Assembly: GCA_949298075.1 (NCBI GenBank)
Contig: CASFVA010000066.1
Location: 62,001-126,000 of the forward strand
Reading direction: 5' to 3'
Origin: an uncultured Lentisphaeria bacterium
Lineage (GTDB): Bacteria; Verrucomicrobiota; Lentisphaeria; Victivallales; Victivallaceae
Length of the DNA: 64,000 nucleotides
Shown here: positions 37,231-46,151 of the stretch, in pieces
How the letters are laid out: each line of letters begins with the position of its first letter
How positions within the stretch are numbered: position 1 is the first letter of the stretch
Program-made: the position numbers and the translations under genes
The notes under the pieces: model-generated
Told to the model about the DNA's origin: nothing
Database searches by the model: none
Seen by the model: the letters and a program-made list of their open reading frames with translations, nothing else

Positions 37231-37259
37231 TTGCAAAAAAAACAGAGCAAGGATATGTT
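37231..37259 (+). promoter_or_regulatory. Promoter for the lipoprotein/CsgG/LpoB cluster
   Basis: TTGCAA at 37231-37236, 17-base A-rich spacer, TATGTT at 37254-37259. Predicted start near 37266, so the first gene must start at 37297 rather than at the in-frame ATG at 37216. Confidence 0.7.
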
Positions 37260-37296
37260 ATCACCGGCAGAAAAACCCACTGGGAGCAACGGAAAA

Positions 37297-37659
37297 ATGC
37301 ATGGAAAATCCGCAAGTCCGGTAGTCCGGTTCCGCATCGCCGTCCTGGCGCTGATGCTGCTCCTGCCGGCCGGCTGCGGTCCGGCTCCGGAAAGTGAGCT
37401 GGCGGCGGAAGGCGGCCCCGCCGGCGAAACCCTGCGCCGGCTGGCGGTCAAGGCGCTGCGCGAAACCGGCGTGGAGAGCCGCAAGCCGCTGGTGACCGTC
37501 GACCGCCGGCTCGGGCCGGGCGACTATCTGGTGACGGTGATCACCGACAGCGGCCGCTCCTGCGGCGGACGGCTGTTCCGGGATCGTGCCCGCTTCCGGC
37601 TGACGCTGGATCCGGCATCGGTGCACCGCCGTGAACTCACGGTCAAAATCAGGCAATAG
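37297..37659 (+). CDS. Small putative lipoprotein, first gene of envelope cluster
   Basis: 120 aa. The signal peptide ends in LLPAGC with lipobox Cys27. The mature part is about 90 residues, mostly predicted beta strands in its second half (DYLVTVITDSGR, then RFRLTLDPASVHRRELTVKIR). I do not recognise a family. It starts the seven-gene plus-strand cluster at 37.3-43.2 kb, 33 bases before the CsgG-like gene. In gammaproteobacteria, COG3014/LpoB/YcfL neighbourhoods often include a small lipoprotein of similar size, but I cannot show homology here. Start has GGGAGC upstream. Confidence 0.75.
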   Translation: MHGKSASPVVRFRIAVLALMLLLPAGCGPAPESELAAEGGPAGETLRRLAVKALRETGVESRKPLVTVDRRLGPGDYLVTVITDSGRSCGGRLFRDRARFRLTLDPASVHRRELTVKIRQ

Positions 37660-37692
37660 CTTCAGCATGGGAAAACATAAAGGAAAACGATC

Positions 37693-38514
37693 ATGACGGG
37701 ATTGAACTGGTTCCGGTGGCTGGCGGCGCTGCTGGCGGCGGCCGGCGTACAGGCCGCGGACATCCGCGTAGCGGTGTTTGATTTCACCACAATCGACATT
37801 CAGGGTCAGAAGTTCTATGAATTCCGGGACCGGGGACCGGATGAAAAAAATCATGACTCGCTCTCCGACGCCGACCGGGCGGTCATCGATGACCGGATGC
37901 TCGGAATGGTGAAAATGATCGACGCCGATCTGGCAGCCTACAAGATCGTCCACGACATCAACCGCAACGACCAGGAAAACGACCGCGATCGCGCACGGCG
38001 GGATGAACTGGCCGACCGGATTCTCCGGACTCAGCAGCGCTCAGTGGTGATCGGAGCGGAATACATGATCGCGGCGCTGAATCAGTCCCCGGCGCTCAAG
38101 GTCATCGACCGCGGCAGTCTCGCCCGGGGGCTGCGGGCAATTGAGACCGGACGCCCCGGAGTGGAGTGGGAAAAGGCCGTCTCCGAATTCGGCAGAGTCA
38201 GCGGCGCCACCCACATTCTCTACGGTACCGTGGCGGACTTCCAAACCAAAAGCAACCGGTTCTCCGGTTACGGCGTTCTCACTGAGCAGGTGGTGTATTC
38301 GCTCGATCTGGTCATAAAGCTGGTTGACACCTCAAACGGTGAGGTGATCTTTTCCGGTGTGTTCACCGGCCGCGACCGCGATCTGAAAACCCAGTTCGCC
38401 CAGCGGATTGATTCGGGTCGGTTTGAGCGGATGATGAAAAGCGCGGTCAGTCAGGCCGCCGAAGCCATCAATCAACAGTTGGCCGTCCCGGCGGCCGGGG
38501 AGAAACAGCCATGA
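37693..38514 (+). CDS. CsgG-like exported protein
   Basis: 273 aa with a Sec signal peptide ending VQAAD but no lipobox Cys, unlike CsgG. The mature start IRVAVFDFTT, then EYMIAALNQSPALKVIDRG, and ATHILYGTVADF followed by VYSLDLVIKLVDTSNGEVIFSG reproduce the CsgG/HfaB periplasmic domain pattern, in which the protein forms or caps an outer-membrane pore. The lack of lipidation suggests a soluble periplasmic partner. An insertion rich in Asp, Asn and Arg (about 60-105, partly repetitive with DR and ND) follows the first strand. Overlaps the next gene by four bases (ATGA). Confidence 0.75.
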   Translation: MTGLNWFRWLAALLAAAGVQAADIRVAVFDFTTIDIQGQKFYEFRDRGPDEKNHDSLSDADRAVIDDRMLGMVKMIDADLAAYKIVHDINRNDQENDRDRARRDELADRILRTQQRSVVIGAEYMIAALNQSPALKVIDRGSLARGLRAIETGRPGVEWEKAVSEFGRVSGATHILYGTVADFQTKSNRFSGYGVLTEQVVYSLDLVIKLVDTSNGEVIFSGVFTGRDRDLKTQFAQRIDSGRFERMMKSAVSQAAEAINQQLAVPAAGEKQP

Positions 38515-39830
38515 TCGGATTATTGCAACGGACTCTGGGGCTGGCGGCCGCCGCCGTTATCGTGACCGCCGCGACGGCAGCTGAACGGATCGCGGTGGCC
38601 GAACCGCGGGCCGGCCATGGAATTACGGAAGCGGAAATAGCCGGCATTTCCGACTACATTGAAAGCAAGCTCGGCGGTGAATACGAAATCTACTCGCGCA
38701 GTGCGCTCAATGCCATAATCCGGGAGTGGGAACTCACCAACTCCGGACTGATGCTCGACGATGCCGGACGGCAGGAACTCAACCAGCGCGCAGTCAGCCG
38801 ACTGCTGGTCTACACCGTGTCAAAACCGGGGTCGCGCTACATTCTGACCCTCATGGTGGTTAATCCCGAAACCGGGAAAATTGATTCCGACCACCGCGCC
38901 AGCGTCGAAGCTCCCACCTTTGACCAGCTTATCGGACGGATCGACCACGCGCTGGCCCGGGCCGGCCTGCTGGCCGGAGCCGAGGCCCGGAAAATCAAAC
39001 GTCTGGCCCTGCTGCCGACCGAGATGGCGGCCGGAACCGAGCCGCAGATCGGCGGCAAGTTCAACCGTCTGCTCGGTTCCTGGCTGCTGAAGGCCGGCAG
39101 CTTTGAACTTCTCAGCCGCGAGGATCTCGCCAAAATCGCGGCGGAAACCGGTCTGGTCGAGAGCGTCTGGGCTGATTCCGGACAGCGCGCCGCAGTCGGC
39201 CGTCTCCAGCTCGGGGACTACATCATCGTGTCAAAGATCACCCGTTTCCAGAGGCGGGCCGCCACCACGGCGACGGCGATTGCCGGAACCTCCGCGGCCC
39301 GGATTTTGATTGACCTGGAGCTTCAGGTGAAAATACTGGAGGTCGCCACAGGACAGATCATCGCCAGCGAGGATCTCACATTTTCGCTCAACAGCCGCGA
39401 CATTCCGGCCACGTCCCGCCGGGACTGGACCGTTGCCGACTACGATGACGACATTCTGAAAACCGCCGCCGCGCATACCGGCGCCACGTTGCTGGAGCGG
39501 CTTGATCCGCTCCGGATTGCCGCCGTCGACGGCAAAACCGTCTATCTCTCCCGCGGGGCGGGAGCCGGAGTTGAAGCGGGGGCCGTTTATCAGGTGTTCG
39601 CGCCCGGCAAAGCCTTCAAGCATCCGGTAACCGGTAAAGTGATCGGAACCACAGAAACCGAGGTCGCGACTATCCGGGTCAATCGGATCATGCCCGGAAC
39701 CGCCGCCGCCGAAATCGTCAAATCCAGCGGAGAAATTCCAGTCGGCGCCGTCTGTCGCGCTGCCACGCCGGCTGCAGCTCCGGAGGCCGAAACGGCAGCA
39801 CCGCCGCCAGCGTATCCGGCGGCCACCTGA
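38511..39830 (+). CDS. Exported protein with CsgG-like region and FlgT-C-like end
   Basis: 439 aa with a Sec signal peptide (cleaved near ATAAE) and no lipobox. The N-terminal 150 residues and the middle (IKRLALLPTE, then GSFELLSREDLAKIAAETG, then LGDYIIVSKITRF) look like two copies of a CsgG/TolB-type alpha-beta unit. The C-terminal part, VDGKTVYLSRGAGAGVEAGAVYQVF then TGKVIGTTETEVATIRV, resembles the C-terminal domain of the flagellar H-ring protein FlgT. The tail is a Pro/Ala-rich linker. No flagellar genes are present in the window. Likely a periplasmic part of the same assembly as the preceding protein. Confidence 0.7.
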   Translation: MIGLLQRTLGLAAAAVIVTAATAAERIAVAEPRAGHGITEAEIAGISDYIESKLGGEYEIYSRSALNAIIREWELTNSGLMLDDAGRQELNQRAVSRLLVYTVSKPGSRYILTLMVVNPETGKIDSDHRASVEAPTFDQLIGRIDHALARAGLLAGAEARKIKRLALLPTEMAAGTEPQIGGKFNRLLGSWLLKAGSFELLSREDLAKIAAETGLVESVWADSGQRAAVGRLQLGDYIIVSKITRFQRRAATTATAIAGTSAARILIDLELQVKILEVATGQIIASEDLTFSLNSRDIPATSRRDWTVADYDDDILKTAAAHTGATLLERLDPLRIAAVDGKTVYLSRGAGAGVEAGAVYQVFAPGKAFKHPVTGKVIGTTETEVATIRVNRIMPGTAAAEIVKSSGEIPVGAVCRAATPAAAPEAETAAPPPAYPAAT

Positions 39831-39856
39831 AGCACCGGCAGGGAGTCCGCATTCTC

Positions 39857-41371
39857 ATGAGCATTGCTTCCGCGTTCAGGCCGCCGCCGCGGTGCCGCTG
39901 GCTCCGCTTTGCGCTGCTGCTGGTGCCGCTGTTCGCCGGCTGCCGGACCGAATACGGAGCGGACGACCAGCGGAAACTGGCGGAACTCTATTACTCCGGC
40001 CGCCTCGATGAGGCGGCGGAACTGGCTACAGCCATCAGCGAGAACGAAGCCGACTCCACCGGAAGCGACGCTCTGCTCTGGCACCTGGAATCCGGCAACG
40101 TCAACCTTGACGCCGGCCGCAGCGAAGAATCGATGCGCAGTTTGGACCGGGCGGAAAAGCTGCTTTACGGCTACGACTCCGAGGGGCGCCTGCGACTGCA
40201 TGAAATCGGAGCCTCCGACTATACCGGCACTCTCGCCGACCGGCTGACCCTGCATCTGCTCAAGGGTTTCAATTACCTCAACTCCGGGAGAGTGGAGGAT
40301 TTTCTGGTTGAGATCCGGCGCATGCGCCACTCCCAGTTCCGCTATCTGCTCCGGGATTCCGATGCTGAAATGCGCCGTTACGACATCGACAACCACGGCC
40401 GCGCCGACGCGCCGACGCTCGCGGTAAGCCGGGCGCTCGCCGACGGTGAGCGGGCAACGGTATTCAAGGCGGCCTCCGGAAGCGACTATCAGGAATACAG
40501 TCAGCGCCGGCGGCCGGCGCTGAGCATACTTTTCAATCCGCTGGCATTTTACCTGTCGGCGGTGGGCTATTATCTGAACAACGAGTGGGATGAGGCTCTG
40601 ATTGATCTCAACTATCTCAACCGGATTGATCCCGAAAACGCCCTGTTCCGGCGCGATCTCAAGACGCTGAGCGTCATGCTCGGCGATCCGGTGCCGGCCG
40701 GACTGGAAGCCGTTGATCCCGATACCGGCTCTCCGGGCGACCAGGTGGTTTACATCATCTACGCTCAGGGCAGGCCCTGCGGCTGGAAAGACCGTCAGGC
40801 CGCTTTCCACCTGCCCGGCCAGGTGCCGGCCAGCTGGAAGTTCAGTCTGCCCGATTACCGCCGGTTCGATGGGGGACGGCTGACTGCGAGGTCCGGCGGC
40901 CGGAGCGGTGCCGGAGTGCCGCTGGCCGACATGGGGGAAATCATGCGGGAAGAGTTCTGGCAGCGTGACATCTCGGGGCTGATCGACCGGGCAGTGGCGG
41001 TCACCCGCTCCACCACCATCGCACATGAAGCCGCCAAAGTCCAGCTGGCCGCCGCGCTGGCCATGGCGGATTCGGATTTCAAACCGCTGGCGGTGGCGCT
41101 CGCCCGGGCGCAGGTCGCCGCCACCAGCCGGGCAATAATCCGACAGACGGACTGGCGGCGCTGGCTCACCGTGCCGCGCCACTACCAGCTGCTCCGGCTG
41201 CCGTTGGGGGAACCGGGACAGCGCAGCATTGAGCTGCAGGTGCTCAACCGCGACGGCAGGGTGATCGAACGCCGGGAATTCACCCCCTCCGACGATGCCA
41301 ACCGCGTGTTCATCTACGTCCGGGAACTCGACGGCTCCCGGCGATTCAAATTCTGGGAGAGTCTGGAATGA
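39857..41371 (+). CDS. COG3014-like TPR lipoprotein
   Basis: 504 aa. Lipobox LFAGC with Cys29. The N-terminal half is helical and TPR-like (LYYSGRLDEAAELATAIS, LESGNVNLDAGRSEESMRSLD, YYLNNEWDEALIDLNYL). The C-terminal half includes QVVYIIYAQGRP and a final beta region with DWRRWLTVPRHYQLLRLPL, which matches the DxRSWxTLP region of COG3014 proteins. COG3014 genes sit near lpoB and ycfL in several gammaproteobacteria, and both follow here. It may be an outer-membrane scaffold for the exported CsgG-like proteins. Its stop overlaps the next frame as ATGA. Confidence 0.75.
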   Translation: MSIASAFRPPPRCRWLRFALLLVPLFAGCRTEYGADDQRKLAELYYSGRLDEAAELATAISENEADSTGSDALLWHLESGNVNLDAGRSEESMRSLDRAEKLLYGYDSEGRLRLHEIGASDYTGTLADRLTLHLLKGFNYLNSGRVEDFLVEIRRMRHSQFRYLLRDSDAEMRRYDIDNHGRADAPTLAVSRALADGERATVFKAASGSDYQEYSQRRRPALSILFNPLAFYLSAVGYYLNNEWDEALIDLNYLNRIDPENALFRRDLKTLSVMLGDPVPAGLEAVDPDTGSPGDQVVYIIYAQGRPCGWKDRQAAFHLPGQVPASWKFSLPDYRRFDGGRLTARSGGRSGAGVPLADMGEIMREEFWQRDISGLIDRAVAVTRSTTIAHEAAKVQLAAALAMADSDFKPLAVALARAQVAATSRAIIRQTDWRRWLTVPRHYQLLRLPLGEPGQRSIELQVLNRDGRVIERREFTPSDDANRVFIYVRELDGSRRFKFWESLE

Positions 41372-42030
41372 TGCAGCTCCGCAAACATGCAATACCGATT
41401 TTGATTCAATCGACAGGAATGGTTATGAGGCCGCTTTTTTTCCTGCTGCTGTCCGCCGGACTGGCTGCCGGACCGGCCGGCTGCGGCAGTGCCGCCCGGA
41501 GAATTGATCCGGGATCATCCGAATCGCTGGTCACCTTGAGCGGAATCGATCCGTCCGAATGGCGGCAGGCCGCGGCGGACTCCGCCGATTCGCTGTTGGC
41601 CTCCGGCGCGCTCCGCCGCAAAGACGGTCAGGCGCCGGTGGTAATGATCGGCCGCATTCGCAACCAGACGCTGATGCATCTTGAAACCGGACTGCTGACC
41701 GACAAGCTGCGTCAGGCAATCGGAGCTTCAGGACAGGCGGCGGTAACTTCGGCGGTCGGAGCCGGAAGCAATATCGATCTGGCAGTCCGCCGCATCCGGT
41801 CCAAGGAACTGGACGATCTTTTCCATCAGGGCACCGTTCCCCGGCGCGGCACGGTGATCGCACCCAATTTCAGTTTGTCCGGCGCCATCATCCAGCAGAT
41901 GTCGGAATCCGGCCGGACCGAGGAAAGTTACTTTCTGTTTCATCTGGTTCTGACCGACCTCGCCACCGGTGTGGCGGTCTGGGAGCACAACACCGAGTTC
42001 GCCAAACAGGCAACCCGGCCGCTAATGTAA
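41368..42030 (+). CDS. LpoB-like lipoprotein, copy 1
   Basis: 220 aa (or 201 aa if started at the ATG at 41425, which has AGGA six bases upstream and gives a more normal signal peptide). Lipobox region AGPAGC. The mature protein matches the LpoB fold: VVMIGRIRNQTLMHLETGLLTDKLRQAI, DDLFHQGTVPRRGTVIAPNFSLSGAII, then LVLTDLATGVAVWEHNTEFAK. E. coli LpoB is the outer-membrane activator of PBP1b. This copy lacks the long disordered Pro-rich linker of E. coli LpoB that spans the periplasm. About 45 % alike by eye with copy 2 downstream. Confidence 0.82.
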   Translation: MMQLRKHAIPILIQSTGMVMRPLFFLLLSAGLAAGPAGCGSAARRIDPGSSESLVTLSGIDPSEWRQAAADSADSLLASGALRRKDGQAPVVMIGRIRNQTLMHLETGLLTDKLRQAIGASGQAAVTSAVGAGSNIDLAVRRIRSKELDDLFHQGTVPRRGTVIAPNFSLSGAIIQQMSESGRTEESYFLFHLVLTDLATGVAVWEHNTEFAKQATRPLM

Positions 42031-42105
42031 ACCAGCAGAGCTGTCAACCGCGGGCAACCGCCGCCGAACCGGCGGTCGGTCCCCCAGCAAAGGAGAAAAG
42101 AATAA

Positions 42106-42582
42106 ATGACCAGATTTTCGCTGATTCCGGCCGCGCTGGCGGCCGCCGCCGTGCTGCTGGCCGGTTCCGGCTGCCAGGACACGGTCAACACCGCCGAAAA
42201 CACGGCCAAAAGCATGCGGCTGGATCCGGTGGAGGCCAGGTGCTTCGTCACTGACAACTTCTGCCGCGACCGGCTGCGTCCCCTGGGAGTCAACCGCACC
42301 GTCACTCCGGAAGGATTCATGCGTGTTCAGATCGCCATTCGCAGCGAGCGTTACGGCTTCTGGCCGGAGTTGTGGAGCTGGTTCATGGGCGACAACCCCT
42401 ATCATGTGAGTTACCGGTTCGAATGGCTGGACGCCAACGGCATGCTGGTGCGCACTGCCGCCGGAGCGTGGCGAAACGAAATTTTCCTGCCCGGAGAAGT
42501 CAGATATCTGCAAAGCACGGCGCCCAACGCCAACTGCCGTGATTTCGTTTTCAGTGTCAAAGAGAATTCAGCATCCAATTAA
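42106..42582 (+). CDS. ycfL: YcfL-like (DUF1425) lipoprotein
   Basis: 158 aa. Signal peptide with lipobox-like LLAGSGC (Cys at about 22). The mature part resembles YcfL: FMRVQIAIRSER, YHVSYRFEWLDANGMLV and a C-terminal LQSTAPNANCRDFVFSVK, where YcfL proteins have the APxxxxxDFRV pattern. In E. coli ycfL directly precedes lpoB; here it lies between two LpoB-like genes, keeping the link. Function unknown. Start has AAAGGAG upstream. Confidence 0.82.
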   Translation: MTRFSLIPAALAAAAVLLAGSGCQDTVNTAENTAKSMRLDPVEARCFVTDNFCRDRLRPLGVNRTVTPEGFMRVQIAIRSERYGFWPELWSWFMGDNPYHVSYRFEWLDANGMLVRTAAGAWRNEIFLPGEVRYLQSTAPNANCRDFVFSVKENSASN

Positions 42583-42610
42583 ACCGAATCAGCGGAGAAA
42601 GGACCTTTTC

Positions 42611-43231
42611 ATGAATCTGTTTGTAAAACGCTCAGCGGTTATGCTGACGGCCGCCGTGCTGGCCGCGGGAGCCGCCGGCTGCGGAAGTTCGGCCCGCCGG
42701 ATCGATCCCGCCACCCAGGGCATCACCACTGTGCGGGATGTCAACACCAGCGACTGGCAGGACGTCGCCGCCCGCAGCATCGATTCGCTGCTGGCCTCCG
42801 GCGCGCTGACCCGTCCGGACGGCCGCAAATCGATTGTCATGATCAACACCGTGGCCGACCGCACCGGCCGCCGGGCCAACACCCGGATTCTGACCAATAA
42901 AATGCGTCAGGCCATGCTGGCCTCCGGCAAAGCGGTGGTCACCACTGCAGTCGGGGCGCAGGGAGCCGAGGATTCCGCCACCCGCCAGGTGCGGGAGCTG
43001 GAAAACGACGATCTGTTCAATCCGGCGACCGTGCAGAAGCGCGGCACGGTGCTCGCCCCGGATATCAGTATCTCAGGAGAAATCATCCGGGAGGAGACCC
43101 GGTCCGGACGCACCGTCGAAAGCCTTTTCATGTTCCACGTCGTAGCCACCGACCTCGCCACCGGACTGGCGGTCTGGGAGGATACTTTCGACATCTCCAA
43201 ACAGGAGACCGAAAATATTTTCGGCTTCTGA
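42611..43231 (+). CDS. LpoB-like lipoprotein, copy 2
   Basis: 206 aa. Signal peptide ends GAAGC. Shares with copy 1 the mature N-terminus GSxARRIDP, the SIDSLLASGAL region, a LTNKMRQAMLASGKAVVTTAV stretch, DDLFNPATVQKRGTVLAPDISISGEII and ATDLATGLAVWEDTFDISKQ, so the two arose by duplication. Predicted outer-membrane lipoprotein acting on a class A penicillin-binding protein, or on the exported cluster proteins. Start at 42611 has GGAGAAAGGA upstream. A bidirectional terminator follows. Confidence 0.85.
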   Translation: MNLFVKRSAVMLTAAVLAAGAAGCGSSARRIDPATQGITTVRDVNTSDWQDVAARSIDSLLASGALTRPDGRKSIVMINTVADRTGRRANTRILTNKMRQAMLASGKAVVTTAVGAQGAEDSATRQVRELENDDLFNPATVQKRGTVLAPDISISGEIIREETRSGRTVESLFMFHVVATDLATGLAVWEDTFDISKQETENIFGF

Positions 43232-43239
43232 CTTCCGAT

Positions 43240-43284
43240 AAAAAAACGCCGCCGCTCCGGAAGCCCGGTGCGGCGCTGTTTTTT
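43240..43284. terminator. Bidirectional intrinsic terminator
   Basis: A run of seven A, a CGCCGC stem start, a GC-rich loop region, GCGGCG and then CTG and six T. It lies between the converging lipoprotein cluster and the KDO/OstA operon and can serve both strands. Confidence 0.85.
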
Positions 43285-43350
43285 CGGCCGGTGCCAGCCG
43301 GGAAAGTCCGGCCTGTCTCCGGAAGCCCGGTCAGCCGGAAACTTCCCGTT

Positions 43351-45636
43351 TTATTCGCGTCCGGTGTCGGTGCGACCCTCGGTCTGAAACACCCCGTCGG
43401 CGGTGTTGAAGATAATACGGTCGGCGTACTGCCGGATGTTGGAGGCACTCAGCCAGGGCCGGTTGGGCGGAATGGCGGTGATCACCACCTCGCGGGTGGC
43501 GGCCCGGTACTCCGCCCGGTCGCCGCCGGCCTTCTGAAATTCACCATCCTCCTCCCGGCGGGTCATGAGCACATCGTATTCGGCCAACGCCCGGTCCATG
43601 GCCAGCCCTTCGCCGATTACAAGCCGGCTGGGCAGAGAACTCTCGCTGCTCAGGGCAAAGGGATCGGCGTCGATGTCCTGGTCCGCCTCCGCCGCCGGAC
43701 GCTCCGGAACGGCAAACAGATAGAGGTCGCGGCAATCCAGCCGGCTCTGCTCATCATACAGACTGACCCTGCCGTGAAACTCCGACGCATTGGACTTCAG
43801 GTTGACAATACCCTGGTCCGCCTTGAGGGTGCGGCTGCCCCTGGAGCTGCCGACCAGATCATGCAGAGAAGCAGTCCGGTCTCGGCCGGACGCCGTGTCC
43901 GGACCGGCACCGCTCCGGGGCGCAGTCAGATTGACCGCGGTCAGATTGCCGTCGCACAGAGCTCGGACTAACCGGGTGCCGCCGGACTGGAAGACTCCGG
44001 GCGCCGGCGCCGCTCCCTCCGGGAGCGCCTCGAAATACATGGTCATCCGGTCGGTGGAGAGTTCGGCATCAGGATCGCGCATTTTGACCCGGCCGATCGC
44101 CACCGCCCGGTCCAGGCGTTTTCCTTCCGACGAGGAGCCGCCCAGCAGCGGATTGAAGTCGGACGACGTCCGGGCCGGCCCTGCCGGTGCCGGACGGTCG
44201 GCCAGATAGAGTTCCAACCGGTCGGTGGTCAGAACCGTGCGGGCATCACTGATCCTGACGTCGGGATAGAAATCCAGCCGGTTGCCGGTGTAATTGAAAT
44301 CGGCGAATCCGGCGGTGAGGGTCGTGGGACCGCGCTCCGGATCATCGGCCTTTTTGCTTACGATTTGCAGATGGTCGTAAGCCCTGACCCGGTCCAGCTC
44401 ACGCCTGCCGCCGCCGGGACCGTCTTTCGCACCGGACCCGGACAAAAAGAATTCCATGCGGTCGCAGCTGAGTGTCATCTGGGGATCATCACCCTGCACC
44501 TTGCCGACCAGCTCTCCCCGGTTGGCGGCCAGGTCAAAGAAACCGTTGTCCCCGGAGAGCGTCCGCACCGCCCCCTCCGCGTCGGGAGCCTCTATCCGGC
44601 AGCCGCCATCGGCGTACATTTTCTGCTCCGGACGCAAAAGCCGGAAACGGTCGGCAGTCATCTTTTCGCCGCCGGCGCTCTCCAGCCGGGGCCGGATTTC
44701 GTCGCCGGTCACCGTCAAAAGTCCCGTGGACATCTCGTACTCAAGGTGATCGGCAAACAACCGGTTGACGCCTCCGCCAGGCGCGGCCGGCGCGTCCGAG
44801 ACCTGCACATTGCCATCGGCGAGAATCCGGGAAATGCCGCTGGCGGCTTTCATCGTCGCGGGCAGCATGTCGCTGCTGACAGCGTCGGAATCACCGGATT
44901 TGCGTTCGATGAAAAGCGTGAGCCGGTCACACTCCAGGCGGCCACGCTCCTCCAGCAGGACCACGCTGCCGATCAGCATGATCTGGTTGCGTTCGAGGTC
45001 GATCAGCAGCGAGTCCCCGGTAGCGGTCACATACTCATTTTTGATCGGGAGCTGCCCCCCGATGAACCGGCGGGGGTCGCAGTTCTCCTGCCGCAGCACA
45101 ATCTTGACATCGCTGGTCACCAGAACCGTGCGCCGCTCAAAATCAACCCGATAACCGATGCCGTCCAGATCAAGCTGGGGCGACCGGAAATAGACATTGT
45201 CGTTGCCCGAGGCCATCCGGCGCTCAATGTCAATTTCGCAGGCAGGGGAAAAAATCACTCCGTCGCTGTAGGCGTTGCGCTGCCAGGACCAGAAATCCGC
45301 CACCTCGCGCAACGGTGCTTCCAGCGGATAGGGCGGCGACTTGCGCCAGTTGTCCATGATCGTGTCGACGTCGGAGCCGCGCCGGATCACATCCAGCACC
45401 ACGTTCTCGCCTTGCAGCAGACGGCCGCGACGACTCGCCCGGTCAATGAACACCATGATCTGGAGCAGCCGGTCGCCACCCTCGGCATCCGGCTTGTTGT
45501 AAACCGGGATCTTGGCGTTCTCCAGCCGGAGATCCCGCAAATCGTCGATGTTGTCGGCGCCCCGGACCGGTGTCGCCGTTCCTGCAGCCAGCCCGAGCAC
45601 CGCCGCCCCGAGCACCGCCGTCAGCCGGCGTTTCAT
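43351..45636 (-). CDS. OstA/LptA-like LPS transport protein, very long
   Basis: 761 aa with a Sec signal peptide ([10 protein letters not shown]... cleaved near VRGAD). The body is made of repeated OstA-type beta units, such as SDGVIFSPACEIDIERRMASG, YVTATGDSLLIDLERNQIMLIG, LFADHLEYEMSTGLLTVTG and DCRDLYLF. Such proteins bind or bridge LPS between inner and outer membrane. It is about four times longer than E. coli LptA (185 aa), so one chain could form a long periplasmic bridge or combine several LptA/LptC units. Low-complexity Gly/Asp linkers separate blocks. It overlaps kdsC (ATGA), matching the kdsC-lptC-lptA order of proteobacteria. Confidence 0.8.
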   Translation of the reverse strand: MKRRLTAVLGAAVLGLAAGTATPVRGADNIDDLRDLRLENAKIPVYNKPDAEGGDRLLQIMVFIDRASRRGRLLQGENVVLDVIRRGSDVDTIMDNWRKSPPYPLEAPLREVADFWSWQRNAYSDGVIFSPACEIDIERRMASGNDNVYFRSPQLDLDGIGYRVDFERRTVLVTSDVKIVLRQENCDPRRFIGGQLPIKNEYVTATGDSLLIDLERNQIMLIGSVVLLEERGRLECDRLTLFIERKSGDSDAVSSDMLPATMKAASGISRILADGNVQVSDAPAAPGGGVNRLFADHLEYEMSTGLLTVTGDEIRPRLESAGGEKMTADRFRLLRPEQKMYADGGCRIEAPDAEGAVRTLSGDNGFFDLAANRGELVGKVQGDDPQMTLSCDRMEFFLSGSGAKDGPGGGRRELDRVRAYDHLQIVSKKADDPERGPTTLTAGFADFNYTGNRLDFYPDVRISDARTVLTTDRLELYLADRPAPAGPARTSSDFNPLLGGSSSEGKRLDRAVAIGRVKMRDPDAELSTDRMTMYFEALPEGAAPAPGVFQSGGTRLVRALCDGNLTAVNLTAPRSGAGPDTASGRDRTASLHDLVGSSRGSRTLKADQGIVNLKSNASEFHGRVSLYDEQSRLDCRDLYLFAVPERPAAEADQDIDADPFALSSESSLPSRLVIGEGLAMDRALAEYDVLMTRREEDGEFQKAGGDRAEYRAATREVVITAIPPNRPWLSASNIRQYADRIIFNTADGVFQTEGRTDTGRE

Positions 45637-46151
45637 CGGCGGTACCTCGCCATCAGCGTTTCGAGACGGCCCTGCTCCTCCAGCAGCCGGTGCAACGCTT
45701 CGCAGACGGCGCCGTGTCCGCCCGGAGCCCGGGTGCGCCAGCCGGCGACCTCGTCGAGTTCCGGCATGGCGTCGGCGACCGCCACGGCGACGCCGACCCG
45801 GCGCATGACCGGCATATCCACGACATCGTCGCCGATGTACATGCATTCGGCCGGAGTCACCCCCAGTTCCGGACACAGTTTTTCAAAAGCGGTCAACTTA
45901 TCCAAAGCGCCTTCAACGTAGAAATCCAGCCCGAGATCCTGAGCCCGGCGGCGGGAAGCGGCGTCGGAGCGCCCGGTAAGCACTCCGACCCGCAGTCCGG
46001 AGCGCATGGCGAGTTTGATCCAGTGACCGTCGCGGACATGGAAGAATTTCATCAGTTCCGAACCGCCGTATCCCAACTTGCCGTCGGTCAGAACGCCATC
46101 CACATCCAGAATGATCACCTTGACGTTCCGGAACTGCTCACTGGAGATCAT
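45633..46151 (-). CDS. kdsC: KDO 8-phosphate phosphatase
   Basis: 172 aa HAD phosphatase without a cap. It dephosphorylates KDO-8-phosphate. Nucleophile Asp16 and Asp18 in [12 protein letters not shown], the second motif LTGRSD, and [12 protein letters not shown] are as in KdsC. It overlaps kdsA by 14 bases upstream and the OstA-like gene by four downstream. Confidence 0.95.

Follow-up and report, generated by a model that had tools for sequence, protein, structure and literature searches.

What could a gene cluster encoding two LpoB-like proteins do in a bacterium whose genome yields no class A penicillin-binding protein (PBP)? LpoB is named and annotated for the activation of PBP1b. The question is raised by seven genes, g1–g7, in a 64,000-nucleotide stretch of DNA from an uncultured Lentisphaeria bacterium (G000:C66:62001-126000, hereafter the window), whose genome of 2.33 Mb is 87% complete. 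A preliminary description of this DNA had proposed a periplasm-spanning assembly that joins a CsgG-type pore or a FlgT-type ring to peptidoglycan synthesis. The cluster is real: its genes exist, encode two CsgG-family, one YcfL-family, and two LpoB-family proteins, a TPR-like lipoprotein, and a small exported protein, and are kept together in Lentisphaerota and partly in Gammaproteobacteria. The best explanation for the gene set is an outer-membrane-anchored periplasmic scaffold or ring, which would resemble the H-ring of Vibrio without the flagellum, and to which we give a probability of about 0.45. An ordinary curli pore or a PBP1b activator is unlikely.

In the Pfam searches, g5 and g7 matched the LpoB family (PF13036; E = 2.7e-26 and 2.9e-21, respectively) and g6 matched DUF1425, the YcfL family (PF07233; E = 2.9e-11). 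Both g2 and g3 exceeded the 20.8-bit cut-off of the CsgG family (PF03783), with 26.4 bits (E = 4.9e-6) and 42.4 bits (E = 6.5e-11), respectively, so that the two proteins described as CsgG-like do have significant family matches. The two LpoB-like proteins, which share 51% identity, are the only PF13036 proteins in the window's genome, and both scored under the 110.55-bit cut-off of TIGR02722, the LpoB equivalog of NCBIfam (g5, 94.2 bits; g7, 102.2 bits). The only Pfam match of g4, a protein to which the label COG3014 presumably applies, was a sub-threshold TPR_2 (0.011), and the top match of its profile among solved structures was a TPR protein (3.7e-4). No family was found for g1 in the Pfam scan. 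In g6, the lipidated cysteine is followed by a C-x-x-TVNT motif, as seen in the alignment of this family (A6).

The family profile of g3 matched the structures of TsaP (3jc8, which we take to be a type IV pilus machine entry; 7e-14), a LysM protein (6ve2; 1.1e-11), CsgG (1.3e-4), and a flagellar protein (3w1e; 5.4e-4). The first two matches fall in the C-terminal domain of this family, the third aligns with the CsgG chain 4uv3 over residues 57-188, and the match to 3w1e extends over the boundary between the middle and last domains of that flagellar protein. In Pfam, g3 also gave a FlgT_C match (E = 0.0049) that, at 17.7 bits, stayed below the cut-off of 27, and no LysM domain was among its matches; for g2, a sub-threshold FlgT_M match was seen (8e-4). 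The matches to 3w1e and TsaP make a periplasmic assembly with a FlgT-like part plausible. In the window's g3, the CsgG domain is accompanied by the N-terminal region as well as by the FlgT_C/TsaP-like domain, while in the other aligned g3 sequences one of these two ends is missing. Profile comparison linked g2 to g3 (E = 2.4e-5) and g3 to LpoB (E = 9.9e-5, probability 58%), and the LpoB profile found the solved LpoB domain (4q6z) at 1.7e-5. With the g2 profile, no CsgG structure was among the matches. Its single match in the PDB, an NADH oxidase (0.0043), was taken as chance, as were the antibody chains matched by the LpoB profile. In some relatives, a PEGA domain was observed at the C-terminus of g2 (1.5e-7 in L133:4059-5276).

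The gene order was compared in a set of 60 related genomes, the window's own included, in which a search with the window's g4 found relatives in 28. With iterative profiles and wider stretches, the full order g1–g7 was observed in four genomes (the window's, G032, G026, and G019), and g1–g5 in two (G052 and G057), while a short contig of G005 carries g4-LpoB-YcfL-LpoB. Relatives of g1 were found in 5 other genomes, where they always immediately precede g2. A further 80 named loci (L100-L179) were found by scanning the contigs of named genomes with A4, an alignment of a different g4 subfamily. Nearly all of them are, by title, Lentisphaerota or gut bacteria, together with seven Methyloprofundus/mussel-symbiont methanotrophs, one locus labelled Kiritimatiellota, and one from Opitutales. 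The frequencies in this paragraph that follow are from these 80 loci only, since 30 other loci (L033-L062) share contigs with some of them; loci cut by contig ends are excluded (leaving denominators of 74, 72, 68, and 62). Downstream of g4, YcfL was found in 64/74 loci, LpoB in 67/74, and both in 59/74; upstream, g3 was found in 57/72 and g2 in 38/68. All five genes were present in 31/62. The usual order is g2-g3-g4-YcfL-LpoB, and variants without one or more members occur. The gene set has thus stayed together in relatives; its dispersal there would have counted against the preliminary description. The window's type is distinguished by g1 and by the second LpoB between g4 and YcfL. In a g4 tree (FastTree, 103 sequences, each 380 residues or longer, with long branches), the window's sequence groups with those of five relatives (support 100) on a long stem, separate from the other Lentisphaerota. 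Our literature searches found no paper on this cluster and none for COG3014.

As a separate observation, an extra lipoprotein gene with no Pfam match lies about 2.7 kb downstream of the g4 start in 27 of 86 loci (for example, L124:6524-7297 and L133:11469-12233). Its product contains an IAVMPFLDQRG-like strand that appears TolB-like by eye. Apart from this gene, the search for recurrent neighbours returned mostly antisense or local families.

A related order was observed in Gammaproteobacteria, to which the methanotroph genome G060 probably belongs. In this class, the A4 search gave a match in 62 of 369 genomes. In the 20 gammaproteobacterial loci examined, which are mostly the best-scoring of these 62 genomes, g4 was accompanied by LpoB in 19, by YcfL and LpoB together in 15, and by a g3-like gene in 7. 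The gammaproteobacterial g3 at L222 matched CsgG (6.9e-21) and LpoB (1.5e-8), with FlgT_C and FlgO below the cut-off. LPP20 lipoproteins were seen adjoining LpoB and g4 at L236 and L237, one of the three above the Pfam cut-off.

The preliminary description connected the cluster with peptidoglycan synthesis of the LpoB/PBP1b type, and this connection is unsupported. The GT51 domain of class A PBPs (PF00912) was absent from 56 of the 60 genomes, including the window's own (controls positive in 10/14), although the LpoB family was present in 43. A strong LpoB match (E of 1e-10 or better) was found in 31 genomes, 28 of which were without GT51, and 25 of the 28 genomes with a g4 relative were likewise without it. 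In the 21 genomes reached via the named loci, GT51 was found in 7/7 methanotrophs and in 2/14 others, and no GT51 was found in two complete Lentisphaerota chromosomes, that of strain zth2, with g4-YcfL-LpoB, and that of strain WC36, with g4-LpoB. Matches to UB2H, the PBP1b-type domain, were seen in 32/60 genomes, the window's included. These were weak (best 5.3e-6, 10 above the cut-off), fell in frames of 327-1400 aa, and were never on a GT51 contig; from the frame lengths, we took them for helicase-type proteins, probably UvrB and Mfd.

The absence of class A PBPs from other bacteria of the Planctomycetes–Verrucomicrobia–Chlamydiae superphylum is already known: they were lost in Planctomyces and Chlamydiae, in a report whose main text does not mention Lentisphaerae (PMC8406291). 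No earlier report of LpoB persisting without class A PBPs was found in our literature searches. The few GT51 proteins found in Lentisphaerota are PBP1C-like, with BiPBP_C clear at L063 and L187, below the cut-off at L065, and not found at L066; within the 60 genomes, this Pfam scan covered three of the four GT51 proteins (L063, L065, and L066).

The E. coli LpoB, which has a TolB-N-like fold, reaches PBP1b from the outer membrane by a long disordered arm (PMC6220978, PMC7267771, PMC9593243), described as 54 unstructured residues spanning about 145 A that are needed to cross the periplasm (PMC9593243, PMC6220978). In the window's LpoB-like proteins, 48 and 49 residues separate the lipid cysteine from the conserved strand, and in 23 aligned relatives this distance is 48-78, compared with about 83 residues before the conserved strand in the E. 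coli chain 2mii. Overall, the window resembles the E. coli system in its family matches, in the structure found by the LpoB profile, and in the adjoining YcfL-type gene, and differs from it in the absence of GT51 from its own genome and from nearly all relatives, the lack of a convincing UB2H, the shorter arm of the window's copies, and the missed TIGR02722 cut-off.

These observations are best accommodated by a single envelope module. Its lipoproteins, at least four and of the outer-membrane type, would be YcfL, the two LpoB-like proteins, and the TPR-like protein, joined by two or three soluble proteins of the periplasm that carry CsgG/FlgT-like domains. The lipoproteins would be anchored in the outer membrane on its periplasmic side, the TolB-N-like domains may pack laterally into a ring or patch, as in CsgG and FlgO/FlgP/FlgT, and the TPR-like lipoprotein g4 would serve as the hub. 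Such a module could act as a scaffold or collar by which some machinery of the envelope is held at the outer membrane, being neither a pore nor dependent on PBP1b. The ring is suggested because the g3 profile matches CsgG, 3w1e, and TsaP, all of which are ring-assembly proteins. The module as a whole is further favoured by the conserved gene order, the near absence of GT51 where SEDS proteins are universal, the absence of CsgF, the rarity of FlgI, the profile links of g3 to both g2 and LpoB, and the g3 at L222, which matches CsgG and LpoB at once. The Vibrio H-ring consists of the lipoproteins FlgO and FlgP and the soluble FlgT (PMC7990780, PMC6375700), and the window likewise combines a soluble, possibly FlgT-like protein, whose profile matches 3w1e, with outer-membrane lipoproteins. 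In contrast to the H-ring, the window's genome has no FlgI, the P-ring component of flagella, which was found in 6/60 genomes and in 2 of the 28 with g4, and its g3 missed the FlgT_C cut-off.

Several findings weigh against the scaffold or ring. LPP20, the family of the other H-ring component FlgP, was seen only near two gammaproteobacterial loci and not in the window. In addition, no match to the window's g4 was obtained in 32 of the 60 genomes, a good number of which belong to the same genus, and the module is therefore dispensable. The comparison of the g2 and LpoB profiles gave no support (probability 0.7%), and the match between the YcfL and LpoB profiles was confined to the signal peptide; therefore, not all parts share one fold.

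The absences of GT51 and CsgF leave room for a module that may contact peptidoglycan or activate another synthase. In one such alternative, LpoB would retain its role with a new partner: the LpoB-like proteins would act on another enzyme of peptidoglycan synthesis, for example a pair of a SEDS protein and a class B PBP, and the remaining proteins would tune this activation. Peptidoglycan polymerases are at hand, since SEDS proteins were found in 60/60 genomes, and the cluster conserves LpoB. A UB2H of the PBP1b type (4e-17 or better) was present in 20 of the 27 gammaproteobacterial genomes with g4 relatives and absent from the other 7, so that PBP1b may have been the original neighbour of the g4-YcfL-LpoB trio. 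However, the gene set is present in only 28 of the 60 genomes while SEDS is in all of them, and the window's arm is short compared with that of 2mii, but some relatives have a longer one. We regard this alternative as possible but on the unlikely side. The gene set might instead form a collar around the secretin of a type IV pilus or of type II secretion, with g3 acting as TsaP, as the matches of its C-terminal domain to 3jc8 and 6ve2 would allow. Secretins were found in 60/60 genomes, with seven secretin-domain matches in the window's 2.3 Mb genome, but partners this universal do not discriminate. Unlike TsaP, g3 has no LysM match, and the window's cluster contains no secretin. None was seen in the named neighbourhoods, though not every locus was searched for secretins, and a CpaF-like ATPase downstream at L133, recognized only by eye, was not recurrent. 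A secretin collar appears improbable.

The curli-type pore of the preliminary description, with g2 and g3 as an outer-membrane secretion channel whose substrate would be still to be found, has in its favour the CsgG-family domain of both proteins and the alignment of g3 with 4uv3. On the other hand, CsgF was found in 0/60 genomes (E. coli control positive), g2 and g3 appear non-lipidated, and g2 found no CsgG structure. Moreover, the match of g3 to CsgG ends at residue 188, before the second membrane hairpin is complete, the end of which we presume to lie beyond this residue. The pore is therefore unsupported, and we consider it very unlikely. The variants without one or more members would be expected if the locus were a mere string of genes for exported proteins with nothing in common, but the order is kept in tens of genomes and a related one recurs in Gammaproteobacteria, which makes a chance assembly scarcely credible.

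If the scaffold or ring is correct, the family called LpoB might at its root be a structural part of an undescribed ring or collar that has building blocks in common with the flagellar H-ring, the curli channel, and LpoB and has spread through a phylum without class A PBPs, with PBP1b activation as a later gammaproteobacterial use; this extension is speculative, and we think it rather doubtful. Because almost no member of the group has a class A PBP, LpoB can hardly have its textbook function there. Since LpoB and the same neighbours are nevertheless kept, the LpoB annotation is misleading in this group, and its partners g4, YcfL, and g3, which also stand beside LpoB in Gammaproteobacteria, are candidates with which a so far overlooked function of the lpoB-ycfL neighbourhood could be tested.

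Features of the g1–g7 locus, in window positions
Feature	Position	Strand	Remarks
Weak promoter-like site, unsupported	37231..37259	+	8/12 to consensus by eye
g1, small exported protein, 120 aa	37297..37659	+	Lipobox-like PAGC, doubtfully shared
g2, CsgG-family, non-lipidated, 273 aa	37693..38514	+	PF03783
g3, non-lipidated, 439 aa	38511..39830	+	N-terminal region, CsgG/TolB-like domain, FlgT_C/TsaP-like C-terminal domain
g4, presumed COG3014 lipoprotein, TPR-like, 504 aa	39857..41371	+	Anchor gene of the conserved cluster
g5, LpoB-family lipoprotein, 201 aa	41425..42030	+	PF13036; extra copy of the window's subtype
g6, YcfL/DUF1425 lipoprotein, 158 aa	42106..42582	+	PF07233
g7, LpoB-family lipoprotein, 206 aa	42611..43231	+	PF13036
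Intrinsic terminator	43240..43284	+	Fold of 43234-43290

The seven co-directional genes for exported proteins were borne out in open reading frames, strand, and packing: they span 37297-43231 tightly, and g2 and g3 overlap by 4 bases. As to the single promoter and single terminator said to enclose them, the terminator stands (-30.3 kcal/mol, z = -3.9, equalled by 0 of 200 shuffles), whereas the promoter does not. The latter (TTGCAA-17-TATGTT) was below the scanner threshold of 9/12 and thus unlisted, and the 2 promoter-like sites in the region are no excess over the shuffle mean of 1.4.

Lipidation was judged by eye and with a lipobox pattern that is narrow, flagging 18/29 g4 rows, 12/22 g6 rows, and 19/26 LpoB rows. 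By eye, the lipobox cysteines of g4–g7 are clear; that of g4 (Cys29) is invariant across 25 aligned sequences and that of g6 (C23) across 16. For g1, the pattern flagged 1/5 relatives, doubtfully, and no lipobox was seen by eye in the relatives at L033, L035, and L036. Because its lipobox is not shared by relatives, g1 is best called an exported protein rather than an assured lipoprotein, so that at least four of the five lipoproteins counted earlier remain. Neither g2 nor g3 of the window has a lipidated cysteine by eye, in agreement with their description as non-lipidated, and the pattern flagged 2/10 g2 and 2/19 g3 relatives, doubtfully.

Seven methanotrophs (L101-L104, L107, L108, and L168) carry g4-YcfL-LpoB, in six cases preceded by g3. 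Their g4 sequences, with 47-49% identity to the Victivallales query, were placed among Lentisphaerota in the g4 tree (supports 97, 94, and 88), which suggests horizontal transfer.

The cluster is flanked on one side by gcvT on the opposite strand and on the other by a convergent gene (43351-45876, minus strand), whose matches to LptD_N (29.5 bits) and to an LptC-related family (22.7 bits) are weak, both above the cut-off, and point to a lipopolysaccharide-transport-like protein.

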